Shown piece by piece: positions 2,144-62,526 of a DNA stretch of 64,000 bases. This DNA comes from Thermoflexus hugenholtzii JAD2 (lineage in GTDB: Bacteria; Chloroflexota; Anaerolineae; Thermoflexales; Thermoflexaceae). The stretch is taken from NCBI RefSeq assembly GCF_900187885.1, contig NZ_FYEK01000044.1, positions 124,001 through 188,000 of the forward strand, given 5' to 3'. Under the pieces are notes generated by a model. That model was not told the DNA's origin, searched no databases, and worked only from the letters and a program-made list of their open reading frames with translations. The position numbers and the translations under genes are program-made. Position 1 is the first letter of the stretch, and the number at the start of each line of letters is the position of its first letter.

Positions 2144-3103
2144 TTAGGGTTCGGGTTCCCCTTCCTCCTCAGGGGCCTCCGGGAGGCGAAGGGCGGGATG
2201 ACGACGGACAGCCCATATGAGCAGCGGCATCAGCAACCCCAGCAACGGGAAACCCGCCGGCAGATGCGGCGCCCCCGCGAAGCGATCCAGGTTCCACAGC
2301 ATCAGGATCAGGCTCAGCCAGACCACGCTGAAGTTGGGCCACGGATCCACACTCCGCATCCAGCGCAGCCCCGGGATCCGACGACGGGTGAAGGGCCAGA
2401 ACAGGTTGCTCCCCATCCACCCCAGCTGGTCCTCCAGGATGTGCAACGCATACCCCAGCCCCACCATCACCCCCGGCCACCACCCCCACCACATCCCCAC
2501 GCCCGTCCCCAGGGCAGCCGCCAGCACCAGCGAGTGGCTCCACGCCCGATGCCAGGGGAGGAACTCCACCCGCACCGCCTCCCCCTCCGGACAGAAAGCC
2601 AGCGAGGGGCCCGAGAAGATGTCCACCGTGATCTCCGGATCGTAGCCATATCGCACAGGGCTCGGAAGGGGACGGCGGGCCCGCCCTCCCGCTTCCTCGC
2701 CCCCCCGAATCGGCCGCCCGCCGGTGTTCACCACCGGGCCCACCTCGACCTCCACCGCCCCGCCCTCGAGGTCGAACCGCACCCGGTAGCGCCGCCAGGC
2801 GTCCGGCCCCAAGCGCAGGGTGTGCAGCATCAGGCGGACCGCCCGCCCCTCCCGTCGGGCCATCGCCACCGCCGCCACGATCCCCTCCGCGATGACCGCC
2901 GGATCCGGGGGATCCTCCTCAAAATCCACGGAGAGATCCGGTTGCTCCAACCACCGGGCGAGGCGGAAATCCAGGGCGTCCGGGAGCAGCGCGGCGATGC
3001 CGGCCAGGGCGGGCCAGATCGCCCCCCGGGCCGCCGCCTGCACCACCTCGGGGAAAAACGTGGCCGCGGCAAGGGCGGAGATGAAGTGGGTGAAGCCCTT
3101 CAT
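2144..3103 (-). CDS. Membrane-bound metal-dependent hydrolase, DUF457/YdjM type
   Basis: A 319-residue protein. The N-terminus has the family layout: KGFTHF, a hydrophobic stretch, then LPDALDF. The C-terminal half carries HRAWSHSLVLA and a later HILEDQLGWMGSNLFWPF, matching the conserved His/Asp motifs (H..SH and HxxxD/E) of the YdjM family of inner-membrane hydrolases, followed by hydrophobic helices. Between these halves sits an extra domain of about 110 residues, charged and beta-rich, that ordinary family members lack. I chose ATG 3103 because homology starts at MKGF; an upstream ATG at 3136 would add 11 residues, and neither has a strong ribosome binding site. The substrate is unknown. 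Confidence 0.65.
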   Translation of the reverse strand: MKGFTHFISALAAATFFPEVVQAAARGAIWPALAGIAALLPDALDFRLARWLEQPDLSVDFEEDPPDPAVIAEGIVAAVAMARREGRAVRLMLHTLRLGPDAWRRYRVRFDLEGGAVEVEVGPVVNTGGRPIRGGEEAGGRARRPLPSPVRYGYDPEITVDIFSGPSLAFCPEGEAVRVEFLPWHRAWSHSLVLAAALGTGVGMWWGWWPGVMVGLGYALHILEDQLGWMGSNLFWPFTRRRIPGLRWMRSVDPWPNFSVVWLSLILMLWNLDRFAGAPHLPAGFPLLGLLMPLLIWAVRRHPALRLPEAPEEEGEPEP

Positions 3104-3374
3104 CGAGGCATCCCGTGCGGCGCGCTCTATCATGATGATAGCCGGCTGGCTGCGCCCTCCCCTTCCCCCGCGTTGTCGCATGCCGAATTGCCGATAACCG
3201 GACTGGGCGTTCCGGGGAAGGTGGCAGGGCAGGCGGCCCGGTCGGCGCATTCCCGCAGCCGGGGGCGGAGTTCTCCAGGTGGGGTAACAGGCCTGGGGGC
3301 CGGGTTTCTTTGCCTCGCCCGCTTCCGGTGCGTCGGCTATGGCTGGCTGGACGGGGAGAGGGGGAGCCGTTGTC

Positions 3375-4589
3375 CTACTGCTGAAGAAGGGGGCGGACGA
3401 GGGCCTCAAGGGGCGCCAGGGTCTGTTCCCAGTCGTAACGGGCGACGGCCAGGCGGCGCGCCGCCTCCCCCAGCTGCCGGCGACGGGCTTCATCCGTGGC
3501 TAAGGCGATCATCGCCTCGGCGAACGCCTCCCCGTCGGCCAGCCACACGTGCTCCTGATCCCGCACCGTTAGCCCCTCGCACCCCATCGGGGTGCTGACG
3601 ATGGCCCTCCCCATCGCCATGGCCTCCAAGACCTTGAGGCGGGTCCCCCCGCCGGCCCGCAGGGGCGCCACATAGACCGTCGCGGCGGCCAGATACGGCC
3701 GCACATCGGGCACTTCCCCGACCACCTCCACGCCCGGGATCTCCCCCAGGGCGCGCACCGCCGGAGCCGGGCGCCGGCCGACCAGGAACAGGCGCGCCGC
3801 GGGGAGGACCGCTCGCACCCGAGGCCAGACGGCCCGGGCCAGCCAGAGGGCCGCGTCGATGTTCGGCCGGTAGTCCATCGACCCGGTGAACACGAAGGCC
3901 GGCTCCGGGAGCGGAGCCGGCGGGACGGCCTCGGGCCGGAAGAACGCGGTGTCCACCCCATTGGGCGCCACTACCGGCATGCGGGCCATCCCCAGGGCAT
4001 GGAGATCCCGGGCGTCGGGCTCCGAGACCGCGATCACCGCGTCCACGCCGCGCACCACCCAGGCCTCATAGCGGCGGAGCCGCCGGGCCTGGATCCCCGA
4101 ATAGAGCGCCCCGATCCACCGCCGCGGATCCCGCTGATCCGCTCGGAACAACCGTTCCTGCAGCCGGTATTCGGCGTTCAGCTCGTCCAGGAGGAGGAAG
4201 GGGCGGGATCCCGGCGGGCGCGCGAGCATCTCCTCCACCGCCCAGGCCATCTCCAGCCCCTCGATGAGGATGAGGTCGACCGGGCCCCGGGCCAGGAGCT
4301 CCTCCAACCCTTCCACCAAGGCGCGGGTCCGATAACGAAAGGCGAGATCGGGCCGCGAGGAGGTCAGCAGCTGGCGCAGCCGGACCGAGAGGGGACGCGG
4401 GCGCCAGGGGAACAGCCGGATCTCGTGGGCCAGGGCCTGCCAGGAGGGCGGCGGCGGCCCGGGTCGCTCCGAGAGGGCGAGCACGACCACCGGTCCCAGC
4501 CGGGCCAGCCGACGCAACACGTGGAAGGCCCGGATGGAACCTCCCTTGTTGGGGGGATCCGGGAGCTCGGGGGCCAGGAACAGGATCAC
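3375..4589 (-). CDS. Glycosyltransferase family 4 (GT-B)
   Basis: A 404-residue protein starting at GTG 4589. The N-terminal Rossmann half opens with LFLAPELPDPPNKGGSIRAF, the glycine loop of GT4 acceptor-binding domains. The C-terminal donor half contains APNGVDTAFF, VFTGSMDYRPN and GGTRLKVLEAMAMGRAIVSTP, the nucleotide-sugar-binding region. The sequence resembles the PEP-CTERM/exopolysaccharide Stp1-type sugar transferases, but the substrate cannot be read from it. It lies 62 bp beyond another GT4 gene on the same strand, and a palindromic repeat occupies that gap, so the pair probably works in one envelope or exopolysaccharide pathway. Confidence 0.85.
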   Translation of the reverse strand: MILFLAPELPDPPNKGGSIRAFHVLRRLARLGPVVVLALSERPGPPPPSWQALAHEIRLFPWRPRPLSVRLRQLLTSSRPDLAFRYRTRALVEGLEELLARGPVDLILIEGLEMAWAVEEMLARPPGSRPFLLLDELNAEYRLQERLFRADQRDPRRWIGALYSGIQARRLRRYEAWVVRGVDAVIAVSEPDARDLHALGMARMPVVAPNGVDTAFFRPEAVPPAPLPEPAFVFTGSMDYRPNIDAALWLARAVWPRVRAVLPAARLFLVGRRPAPAVRALGEIPGVEVVGEVPDVRPYLAAATVYVAPLRAGGGTRLKVLEAMAMGRAIVSTPMGCEGLTVRDQEHVWLADGEAFAEAMIALATDEARRRQLGEAARRLAVARYDWEQTLAPLEALVRPLLQQ

Positions 4590-57697: not shown

Positions 57698-58930
57698 TCA
57701 CCCGGCCGGGCGTCGGAGAGCCGGAGCGGGTTGGGGAGCTGGGGCGCGATCCCGAGGGGCGAAGGCCAGATACTGATGGAGGGTCCCCAGCCCATACAGC
57801 GCGGCGGTGCCGAGGAGCATCGCGGTCAGGCCGTAGCGGGCCTGCAGGAGCCCGGAGAGGGTGGCCCCGATCATCCAGCCGGCCTCCCAGGTCAGGTTCA
57901 GGATGCTGCTCACCGTCGCCCGCTCGGCCGGAGGGGTCTGCTCCATGCAAAACTCGGTGAAGAGCGGAGAAGCCATGTTCATCAGCGCCCCGCGCAGGAT
58001 CATCGCCAGGGCGGCCAGCGGCGTCTGATCCGTGAGGGCCATCCCGATCAGGAAGATCACCGACAGCCCCTGGGTGAGAGCCACAGTCGGGATGCGCCCG
58101 ATCCCACGAGCCAGGGCCGGGGCCAGCAACGTAGCCAGCCCGGTAAGGGCGGAGGCCAGGGCGAAGAGCGCGCCCAGGATCTCATCCGGCAGCCCGTAAC
58201 GCTCATGGAAATAGACGTTGAGGAAGGGGATGCTGAGAGCCGCCCCGATCCCCATCAGGAAGTTCGGGACCGCCATGTGGAAAACCGGCGCGCGCAGGGG
58301 TCGCCCCTGGCCGCGCATCGGCCTGGCGGCCATCGGAGCGCGAGGGGCCTCTCGGATAGCGAGCAGCGGCCCCAGGGAGGCGAAGTCGATGAGGGCGGTG
58401 AACAGGATGGGACCGGCGTAGGGCGTCGGCCCCACCAACCCGAGCACCCGGAAGAGATCCGGCAACGCGCCCCCTGCCAGCTCACCTGCGAAGCCGGCCC
58501 AGAACAGGACCGCCGAGGAGAGGGCGAAGAGGGCCGCCCGTTCCGCCTCGGAGGCGTTCTCCGCCAGGAACGGCGCATGGGCGATCACGAACAGGTTGTA
58601 TCCTACCCCGATCAAGCCCACGCCCAGCCCGAGGGGCCAGGGGCCCGTCCCCAGGCCCACCCCGACGGTGCCCAGGCCCATCAGGAGGACGCCCAGGAGC
58701 ATCGCCGGCCGACGGCCGATCCGATCGATCCACCGGCCCGCCGGCAGGCCGATCCCCAAAGCCAGCGCGGAGGGCAGGGCGTTCAGCAGACCCAGGAGCT
58801 CCCGGGATCCGCCCCCCTCCAGCACGTGCAGGTTAAACCAGAGGCCATAGATGGCGCTGCTGAACCCATGCAGGGCCAGGGCGATCAGGAAGAGACGAAC
58901 GTTCCGGTCGAAACGTCGAAGCCTGCGCAT
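57698..58930 (-). CDS. Major facilitator superfamily transporter
   Basis: A 410-residue transporter with about twelve hydrophobic helices in two halves joined by a basic cytoplasmic loop (REAPRAPMAARPMRGQGRP, about 190-210). The inter-helix signature GRWIDRIGRRPAMLLG between helices 2 and 3 is the MFS motif A. Substrate cannot be told; drug or sugar efflux is common. I chose ATG 58930, with GGAGGG upstream, over a longer frame. A perfect palindrome lies 19 bases upstream of the start. Confidence 0.85.
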   Translation of the reverse strand: MRRLRRFDRNVRLFLIALALHGFSSAIYGLWFNLHVLEGGGSRELLGLLNALPSALALGIGLPAGRWIDRIGRRPAMLLGVLLMGLGTVGVGLGTGPWPLGLGVGLIGVGYNLFVIAHAPFLAENASEAERAALFALSSAVLFWAGFAGELAGGALPDLFRVLGLVGPTPYAGPILFTALIDFASLGPLLAIREAPRAPMAARPMRGQGRPLRAPVFHMAVPNFLMGIGAALSIPFLNVYFHERYGLPDEILGALFALASALTGLATLLAPALARGIGRIPTVALTQGLSVIFLIGMALTDQTPLAALAMILRGALMNMASPLFTEFCMEQTPPAERATVSSILNLTWEAGWMIGATLSGLLQARYGLTAMLLGTAALYGLGTLHQYLAFAPRDRAPAPQPAPALRRPAG

Positions 58931-58948
58931 CTCCGCTTCCCTCCGGAG

Positions 58949-58971
58949 GCCCGACCCCCTGGGGGTCGGGC
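58949..58971. promoter_or_regulatory. Perfect palindrome in the MFS 5' leader
   Basis: GCCCGACCCCC and GGGGGTCGGGC flank a single T, giving 11-bp arms. It lies 19-41 bases upstream of the MFS start on its leader. It could be an operator for an unknown repressor or an RNA hairpin near the ribosome site. Confidence 0.5.
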
Positions 58972-59370
58972 AGGAATGAGGCCGAGAGGACATCCGAGAC
59001 ACTCCACCCCTCCAGCGGTTCGCGGCGCGCCGGACCCAACGGCTCACCCGGAAACGGTCGATCGGCGAAACGAGGAAAAGCCCTGCCGGAGCTTCCCCGG
59101 GGCGCTCCAGAGGAGAGCCATCCCCATCCTACCACACACACCTCAGAATTCCGTAAGAGCCCAATGGATCCACAAGGCTAATATTTCCGAATTGTTTGCA
59201 GATATATCTCGCTATATCGAAATCTTGATTCAATCATTCGGGAGATATATGCCAACTACGAGCCCTTTCGCTTGGTATTACCAAGTTCAAATAGAGAAAT
59301 GGGGCCGGCGGGTGGCAGGGGTGTTGTTCAGTTGGGGGAGGGGGATCTGTCGTGGAGGCGGGGATCAAGT

Positions 59371-59422: not shown

Positions 59423-59659
59423 GTGGCCACGGCGTTGAACATCGCGCAGATCCTGCTGGCGATCGCCCTGATCGCCATCATCCTGCTGCAGGCCGGCTCC
59501 TCGCAGCTGGGAGGGGTGTTCGGCCTGGGGGATGTGGGAGTGCCCCGGAAACGGCGGGGCCTGGAGCGCACCGTCTTCAACCTCACGATCTTCCTGGCCG
59601 TCCTCTTCCTGGTCCTGGCGGTGGTGAACGTGATCGTGACCGGCACCCCCACCGGCTGA
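59423..59659 (+). CDS. secG: Preprotein translocase subunit SecG
   Basis: A 78-residue membrane protein starting at GTG 59423, with GGGAGGAAAG nearby. Two hydrophobic helices (about 4-22 and 54-72) flank the conserved loop ILLQAGSSQLGGVFGLGD, and RGLERTVFNLTIFLAVLF follows, which is the SecG layout. It assists SecYE and SecA in protein export. It begins a likely transcript with the peptide-type binding protein 9 bp downstream. Confidence 0.92.
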   Translation: MATALNIAQILLAIALIAIILLQAGSSQLGGVFGLGDVGVPRKRRGLERTVFNLTIFLAVLFLVLAVVNVIVTGTPTG

Positions 59660-61345: not shown

Positions 61346-61364
61346 CTTCCTCAGGAGGGGAAGG

Positions 61365-61877
61365 GTGGGGCCTCTGGAGGTGATAAATCGTTATTCGTTT
61401 CTGGTTCTCGGAGGAGCGGCCCTGCTCGGGCTGGCCGTCGTGCTGGGGCTGCGACGCGCGGGCGGGATCGGCTGGGGGATCTGGCTCCTGCTCCTGCTCG
61501 CCTTGGTGGTCTTCGGGCTGTCCCGACGGGCGCAGCCGTCCGCGCCCTTCTCCTCGGAGGAGGAGATCGCGGCGGCCTGGCGGAGCGGACGGCCGGTCCT
61601 GGTCTACTGGTTCTCGAACTACTGACTGGGGTGCCTCTCCATCCAGCCTGCCGTGCGCAGGCTCGAGCGGGAGTGGCGAGGCGGAAAAGTGCTCTACGTG
61701 GAGGCGCTGAGCCCGGCCGGGCGGGCCTTCGGCCAGCGGTGGGGGTTGCGGCTCACCCCCTCCCTCGCGCTGTTCGATGCCCAGGGCCGTCTGGTTCACA
61801 TCTGGACGGGTGTGACCATGATCCCGGGGGTGGAGGAGCTGGAGCGGCAGCTGCGGGAGCCCGGCGCTCCGCCATGA
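61365..61877 (+). CDS. Membrane thioredoxin-like protein with in-frame TGA (candidate selenoprotein)
   Basis: The frame runs from GTG 61365 (AGGAGG seven bases upstream) to TGA 61875-61877, interrupted only by TGA at 61623-61625. If that TGA is read as selenocysteine the product has 170 residues: two membrane helices (about 11-29 and 36-52), then a thioredoxin fold with RPVLVYWFSNY-U-LGC, placing Sec87 at the first position of the CxxC motif (U-L-G-C, Cys90). The cis-Pro segment is RLTPSLALFDAQGR. Coding character continues unchanged past the TGA. A hairpin with GT in its loop follows. The alternative is a Cys-to-stop mutation (TGC/TGT to TGA). It lies 19 bp after the binding-protein gene. 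Confidence 0.6.
61645..61663 (+). promoter_or_regulatory. Candidate bacterial SECIS hairpin
   Basis: AGCCTGC (61645-61651) pairs with GCAGGCT (61657-61663), a 7-bp stem with a 5-base loop CGTGC. It begins 19 bases after the in-frame TGA, and G and T occupy loop positions 2 and 3, as in SelB-binding bacterial SECIS elements where the GU is near the loop apex. Confidence 0.45.
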
Positions 61878-61890
61878 GGGATCCTCCCCC

Positions 61891-62526
61891 TTAGCCCTCC
61901 GGCCGGAGGCCGGGCCATCCCCGCCGGCCCATCCAACGGGAGAGCTCTGTGGCGACCAGCCAGGCGCTGGCCTCGAAGAAGGCGTAGGTGCGGCGGACGG
62001 AATCCGCAGGGGCCGACTCCAGATCAGCGTTCTCCGCCACCCAGACCACGTGCTCCATCTCCTCGATTCGGTCCAGGACCTCTCCGGGCGTGCCCGGCAC
62101 CGGGATGTCCGCATAGGTGGGATGACGCTGATGAGGGAAGGTCACCGCGTAATCGGGGAGCCGGGGCAGGATCCCCATGGCGATGTAAGCGTGGTGGAAG
62201 AAGAAGACCTGATCTCCGGGTCGGGCCAGCTGGAAGGCCGGCATGAACCGGAACCCCATGGCCTCCCATGCGGACCAGTCCATCATCACCCGCTCCACCA
62301 GGGCGCGCAGCTCGGCGAAGGAGGGGACCGCGGAGGTCCGCAGGCTGAGGATGAACCCCTCCCGCACTTCGGAGAGGTGGTCCAGGGCGTGGTGCAGGGT
62401 GGCTTGGGCGTTTTCAGGGAGCGGCTCCCCCTGGATCCGTCGGGCGAGGGCCGCTTTGGTCTGTTCGGCCAGCCGCCCCAGCGTCTGGAGCGCCTGGAGG
62501 CCTGCGCGCACGTCCCACAGGCGCAT
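61891..62526 (-). CDS. Hypothetical protein (211 aa)
   Basis: A 211-residue soluble protein, mostly helical, with tryptophan-rich segments (VMMDWSAWEAMGFRFMPAFQL; HVVWVAENADLE). Its pattern of helices and spaced histidines (HHALDHL, FFHHAY, HQRHP) could bind metal, but I do not recognise a family. ATG 62526 follows AGGAGGTGAT. It is convergent with the thioredoxin-like gene (14 bp apart), with a remnant gene just upstream on the same strand. Confidence 0.6.
   Translation of the reverse strand: MRLWDVRAGLQALQTLGRLAEQTKAALARRIQGEPLPENAQATLHHALDHLSEVREGFILSLRTSAVPSFAELRALVERVMMDWSAWEAMGFRFMPAFQLARPGDQVFFFHHAYIAMGILPRLPDYAVTFPHQRHPTYADIPVPGTPGEVLDRIEEMEHVVWVAENADLESAPADSVRRTYAFFEASAWLVATELSRWMGRRGWPGLRPEG

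Follow-up and report, generated by a model that had tools for sequence, protein, structure and literature searches.

A probable membrane-anchored UxxC thioredoxin-fold selenoprotein in Thermoflexus hugenholtzii and other Chloroflexota

Replacement of the first Cys of a CxxC motif by selenocysteine (Sec) is an established arrangement. Known examples include Sec-containing thioredoxins and several further thioredoxin-fold selenoproteins with UxxC (PMC13188914, PMC9312934), in line with the precedent cited in a sequence-only reading of the locus described here. The Sec-containing bacterial thioredoxin (Trx, PF00085, UxxC) is listed as verified in PMC13188914, and a "thiol:disulfide interchange protein" (PF13098, UxxC) appears there as a predicted selenoprotein. 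The same paper models the bacterial SECIS as a hairpin with a loop of 3–9 nt, a stem of 4–16 bp, a G in the first two loop positions, a distance of 16–37 nt from the UGA, and an MFE of at most −7.5 kcal/mol.

The Thermoflexus gene shares with the Sec-containing Trx a thioredoxin fold, Sec as the first residue of UxxC, and an in-frame UGA with a SECIS downstream. It departs from that protein in having two membrane helices, in reading SNYUxxC rather than WCGPC, and in scoring below the cut-offs of the thioredoxin models. With the predicted PF13098 selenoprotein it has the fold class and UxxC in common. The C-terminal domain of DsbD is also similar, as a membrane-tied periplasmic thioredoxin domain that matches in fold (4ip1, 2fwe). 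That domain, however, has Cys instead of Sec and is part of a large electron-transfer protein absent from this gene.

The locus and the predicted protein

The window, i.e., the whole stretch of DNA that was analysed, is 64,000 nucleotides of a T. hugenholtzii JAD2 contig and has a G+C content of 0.692. The features of interest are as follows.

61353..61358, +, Shine-Dalgarno-like AGGAGG, seen in the sequence 6 nt before the GTG start
61365..61877, +, proposed selenoprotein gene (170 residues and a stop codon) for a thioredoxin domain with U87-L-G-C90 behind two membrane helices at the N terminus
61395..61451, +, membrane helix 1, residues 11–29 (AlphaFold helix and hydropathy)
61464..61526, +, membrane helix 2, residues 34–54 (AlphaFold helix and hydropathy)
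61557..61856, +, thioredoxin-fold domain, residues 65–164 (profile search, AlphaFold, Foldseek)
61623..61625, +, TGA within the frame, decoded as selenocysteine (residue 87), at the N-terminal end of the helix that follows the first core strand
61632..61634, +, TGC, Cys90, the resolving residue of UxxC, unchanged in all aligned sequences
61645..61663, +, putative SECIS hairpin: 7-bp stem (61645–61651 with 61657–61663), loop CGUGC containing GU, UGA-to-loop distance 26 nt
61758..61760, +, codon of P132, the cis-Pro position across from the active site, likewise unchanged throughout the alignment
61891..62526, −, 211-residue protein with no Pfam match, a conserved downstream neighbour in Thermoflexus (86–99% identity)

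The frame is opened by GTG 61365, 20 bases past the end of a solute-binding-protein gene (PF00496), and closed by TGA 61875–61877; two close relatives have ATG in place of this GTG. The sequence-only reading had proposed a frame open for 84 codons past TGA 61623–61625, with that TGA at the first position of a redox motif and a 7-bp hairpin with GT in its loop starting 19 bases downstream. All of this was found as described, codon 87 being U and codon 90 Cys. Its expectation that automatic annotation would yield two short ORFs also holds for the program-made ORF list, which splits the gene into a part ending at the TGA and a downstream ORF from GTG 61653.

Taken alone, the open frame carries little weight: with 69% G+C, stops make up about 2% of random codons, and by our estimate 84 open codons would arise by chance about 1 time in 5–6. 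The region has an MFE of −29.7 kcal/mol over 65 nt, and the folding energy of the hairpin is by itself not exceptional (z −1.2). The case thus rests on comparison. Three findings exceed chance: the retention of the TGA across the genus, the covarying stem, and purifying selection before as well as after the TGA.

The AlphaFold model, built with 30 aligned members, has a pLDDT of 88.6 and a pTM of 0.82 and consists of two long N-terminal helices and a thioredoxin fold. Helix 88–103 starts directly after U87, and P132 directly precedes strand 133–137. That is, the redox pair sits at a helix N terminus and the cis-Pro comes before the next core strand, as in thioredoxin folds generally. The top PDB matches in Foldseek are thioredoxins and the DsbD C-terminal domain (E about 5e-6), and a profile search of PDB sequences retrieves thioredoxins at 2.4e-18. 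In both the AlphaFold model and the Foldseek matches a single core spans the junction, in agreement with the earlier claim that the parts on either side of the TGA form one thioredoxin fold.

Two membrane helices are present in Thermoflexus and in some other families, and a second branch has one. The short loop between the helices is Arg-rich in nearly all two-helix members, and the one-helix form has basic residues at its N terminus. By the positive-inside rule, these basic segments suggest that the thioredoxin domain probably lies outside the cytoplasm in both forms.

Conservation of the TGA and of the downstream stem

All eight genus members that yield a full gene, this genome included, have TGA at codon 87, at protein identities of 67–92%; the ninth, 76% complete, gives a weak thioredoxin match only. 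In dozens of other Chloroflexota genomes, drawn from the class and the phylum, a single TGA stands exactly at the U of [S][NP]x-U-x-x-C. Among the Sec-form records are some labelled Roseilinea, Thermoflexales, and Anaerolineales, together with one Ktedonobacter and one Acidobacteriota; the latter two are metagenome bins and possibly misassigned. The Acidobacteriota-labelled record (L073) is, by its label, a Sec form outside Chloroflexota, for which horizontal transfer or a misbinned contig is possible.

The Sec site is TGC in 16 homologues, e.g., in the SNYCLGC of one genome (G027) at 40% identity. The 60 TGA forms and 16 Cys forms align without gaps at this site, giving an in-frame UGA opposite Cys in homologues, as in bacterial selenoproteins. 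Weaker hits, with E of about 1e-3 to 1e-7, are ordinary thioredoxins and do not enter these counts. Among the Thermoflexus genomes compared, Ka/Ks is about 0.1–0.4 both before and after the TGA; one comparison gives a Ka of 0.226 and a Ks of 0.696 after it. The expectations of Cys at position 87 and of a TGA and hairpin conserved in relatives have therefore both held, the latter with compensatory changes in the stem. TGC or TGT throughout the relatives, named in the sequence-only reading as an adverse outcome, is not what is seen, as the TGA is kept. Its caution that an error in a single genome would look alike is answered by the same TGA in independent genomes.

With its 7-bp stem, 5-nt loop, G in the second loop position, and 26-nt spacing, the hairpin lies within the limits of the bacterial SECIS model (PMC13188914). 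An Rfam scan of the region returned no family, and no bacterial SECIS model at threshold. The family alignment has no gaps over the UGA and the 54 bases after it. Across 30 diverse Sec forms an 8-pair stem is paired in 89.2% of the cells, with a covariation score of 0.481, and six of the pairs have changed on both sides (42 cells). Sliding the partner by 1–3 columns lowers the score to 0.098 or less, and all of 500 shuffles stay below the observed value.

As the stem lies within coding sequence, it was compared with two nulls that preserve the amino acids, one drawing synonymous codons at random and the other swapping synonymous codons among the sequences of an alignment column. Pairing in the 60 Sec forms exceeds the former with a z of 14.8 and the latter with a z of 11.2 (0 of 5000). 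In the 16 Cys forms pairing equals the null (2.31 vs. 2.34, z −0.2). If a hairpin is scored as present when its loop contains GU and at least four of its five inner pairs form, it is found in 58 of 59 Sec forms, as against 2 of 16 Cys forms; in the other 14 Cys forms it is broken. The two Cys forms that retain it, L067 and L077, nest inside Sec clades in the tree, and their stems are possibly relics of a recent Sec-to-Cys change, as their placement would lead one to expect. Supported tree-based independent pairs are too few for significance; in these the hairpin goes with the TGA in about three of five and against it in none.

Selenocysteine machinery and the reading of the TGA

The sequence-only reading had called for a search for selA, selB, selC, and selD, whose absence from the genome would have spoken against it. 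All four are present: SelA scores 464.8 bits, SelB 295.7 bits (cut-off 242), SelD 379 bits, and the tRNA-Sec, with anticodon TCA, 78.1 bits. The SelD gene itself carries one in-frame TGA, in SCAGUASKMGP.

2970..4019 of locus L044 (G000:C12), −, SelD gene with in-frame TGA in MDNKTVRLTALASCAGUASK

UxxK is the known Sec site of SelD (PMC13188914). Although SelD is an enzyme unrelated to the thioredoxin-fold protein, it too has an in-frame TGA that this organism reads as Sec, and it serves as an internal positive control. Given the full machinery and a SelD with its own TGA at the classical site, UGA is almost certainly decoded as Sec in this organism. SelB and tRNA-Sec are found in nearly all of the Chloroflexota searched, most Cys-form genomes included, so that across genomes their presence does not tell Sec forms from Cys forms. 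Three of 40 Sec-form genomes have neither a SelB above the cut-off nor a strong tRNA-Sec; all three are drafts, two of them 87–88% complete.

Could the TGA be something else? It is one base away from TGC and TGT, and homologues have Cys at its position, as would be the case if a Cys codon had turned into TGA in this genome only, by decay or sequencing error, and broken the gene. The same TGA, however, is present in separate assemblies of seven other genus members and in dozens of other genera, and Ka is far below Ks downstream of it. This reading is refuted by the conservation of the TGA, and its probability is negligible. Equally improbable is a pair of genes, an 86-residue membrane protein ending at the TGA and a downstream ORF from GTG 61653. 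The automatic ORF list does divide the region in this way, but a single thioredoxin core extends over the junction, Cys-form relatives have a single uninterrupted gene, and neither half holds a complete active site. Translation past the TGA is needed in any case, and it might insert another residue, owing to a code change or a suppressor tRNA, or to programmed read-through that places Trp or Cys there. This is very unlikely, as TGA still ends ordinary genes of the window, such as the 449-codon gene at 57698–59047, and the full Sec machinery, including tRNA-Sec, is present. Moreover, the stem agrees with the bacterial SECIS model and goes with the TGA, not with the gene as such, and the replacement residue in homologues is Cys.

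We are thus highly confident that the gene encodes a selenoprotein, namely, a thioredoxin-fold thiol-disulfide oxidoreductase with two N-terminal membrane helices and Sec at the attacking position of UxxC; the interpretation in the sequence-only reading is supported. The computational evidence consists of the conserved TGA, the Cys/Sec exchange, the covarying SECIS, the complete machinery, purifying selection past the TGA, and the fold. The actual insertion of Sec, the outward-facing topology, a reducing rather than oxidizing role, the electron donor, and the substrate are inferences. In the proposed scheme, the hairpin at 61645–61663 in the mRNA would recruit SelB, which would bring Sec-tRNA to UGA 61623–61625 and allow the ribosome to read through to the TGA at 61875. 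Outside the cytoplasm, Sec87 would attack disulfides, and Cys90 would resolve the resulting selenenylsulfide.

Redox role, family status, and gene neighbourhood

A classical thioredoxin gene (WCGPC) lies directly upstream in 9–10 loci of the one-helix branch, whether of Sec or Cys form, 410–480 bases before the Sec codon.

L018, L029, L064, L068, L069, L075, L085, L094, L103, L077: loci with a classical thioredoxin directly upstream of the one-helix form

This layout suggests that Sec and Cys thioredoxins may be co-expressed at these loci. A thioredoxin-reductase-like gene is found directly downstream at L032, a glutaredoxin/thioredoxin-reductase fusion upstream at L028, and TlpA-like and OsmC-like genes next to Cys-form relatives. 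In Thermoflexus the neighbours, conserved in most members, are the solute-binding protein on the upstream side and the 211-residue protein on the downstream side, and no redox gene is among them. Upstream of the solute-binding-protein gene is a SecG-like frame (LNIAQILLAIALIAIILLQ...) at 59430–59659, +.

Since redox genes adjoin the gene in several relatives, a membrane-anchored thiol-disulfide oxidoreductase is the most likely product. A reducing role seems more likely than an oxidizing one, the profile and fold being closest to the reducing thioredoxins and the reducing DsbD C-terminal domain, and TrxA and TrxB being neighbours in relatives. It is unlikely, though by a margin that leaves it real weight, that the selenoprotein is mainly a VKOR-fed oxidase or isomerase acting on exported disulfides. 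In favour of this reading, a VKOR homologue (91.4 bits) is encoded in the genome, and a DsbD/CcdA-like membrane domain is matched at only 25.3 bits, below the cut-off of 27.1.

The protein scores 16.4 bits against TIGR01068 (classical thioredoxin), where the cut-off is 96.8, and 19 bits against PF00085, where it is 23.5. Its best Pfam match, PF13098 (E 0.0011), is below the cut-off. When 22 members were scanned with the curated NCBIfam selenoprotein models, none was convincing, the best being seleno_TsoB (E 0.021). Thus, no curated NCBIfam or Pfam model searched claims the protein above its cut-off, and the literature searched, from which most subscription papers fall out, holds no report of it. 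In a tree of 84 rows and 97 columns, the family is split from classical thioredoxins, including the neighbouring ones, by a 100/100 branch. The Sec/Cys states need about 10–11 changes on this tree, at least five of them forced by supported branches. As a number of Cys rows appear as lone tips within Sec clades, repeated Sec-to-Cys change is the simplest reading of the 97-column tree.

The selenoprotein family is probably uncatalogued. On balance we favour a Chloroflexota family of membrane-anchored UxxC thioredoxins whose usual form has Sec and whose Cys forms have come about by repeated loss; the Pro-x-Val that follows the active site would be set in part by the SECIS stem and GU loop overlapping it.

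A seemingly unlisted selenoprotein family would be added to a phylum for which few have been described, three in a 2006 survey (PMC1794560), and many split or missed genes are predicted in public Chloroflexota genomes. For Anaerolinea thermophila, PMC4959059 reports a Sec elongation factor without an annotated Sec dehydrogenase. The family may explain the Sec machinery of Chloroflexota that lack Sec dehydrogenases. Since T. hugenholtzii, a member of the genus whose description PMC4959059 cites, is in culture, the protein should be open to direct testing. Finally, in Chloroflexota family f73 the gene is found as two tandem copies with an in-frame TGA in each (G220:C25:16895-17974, G179:C20, G439:C326, G259:C6).
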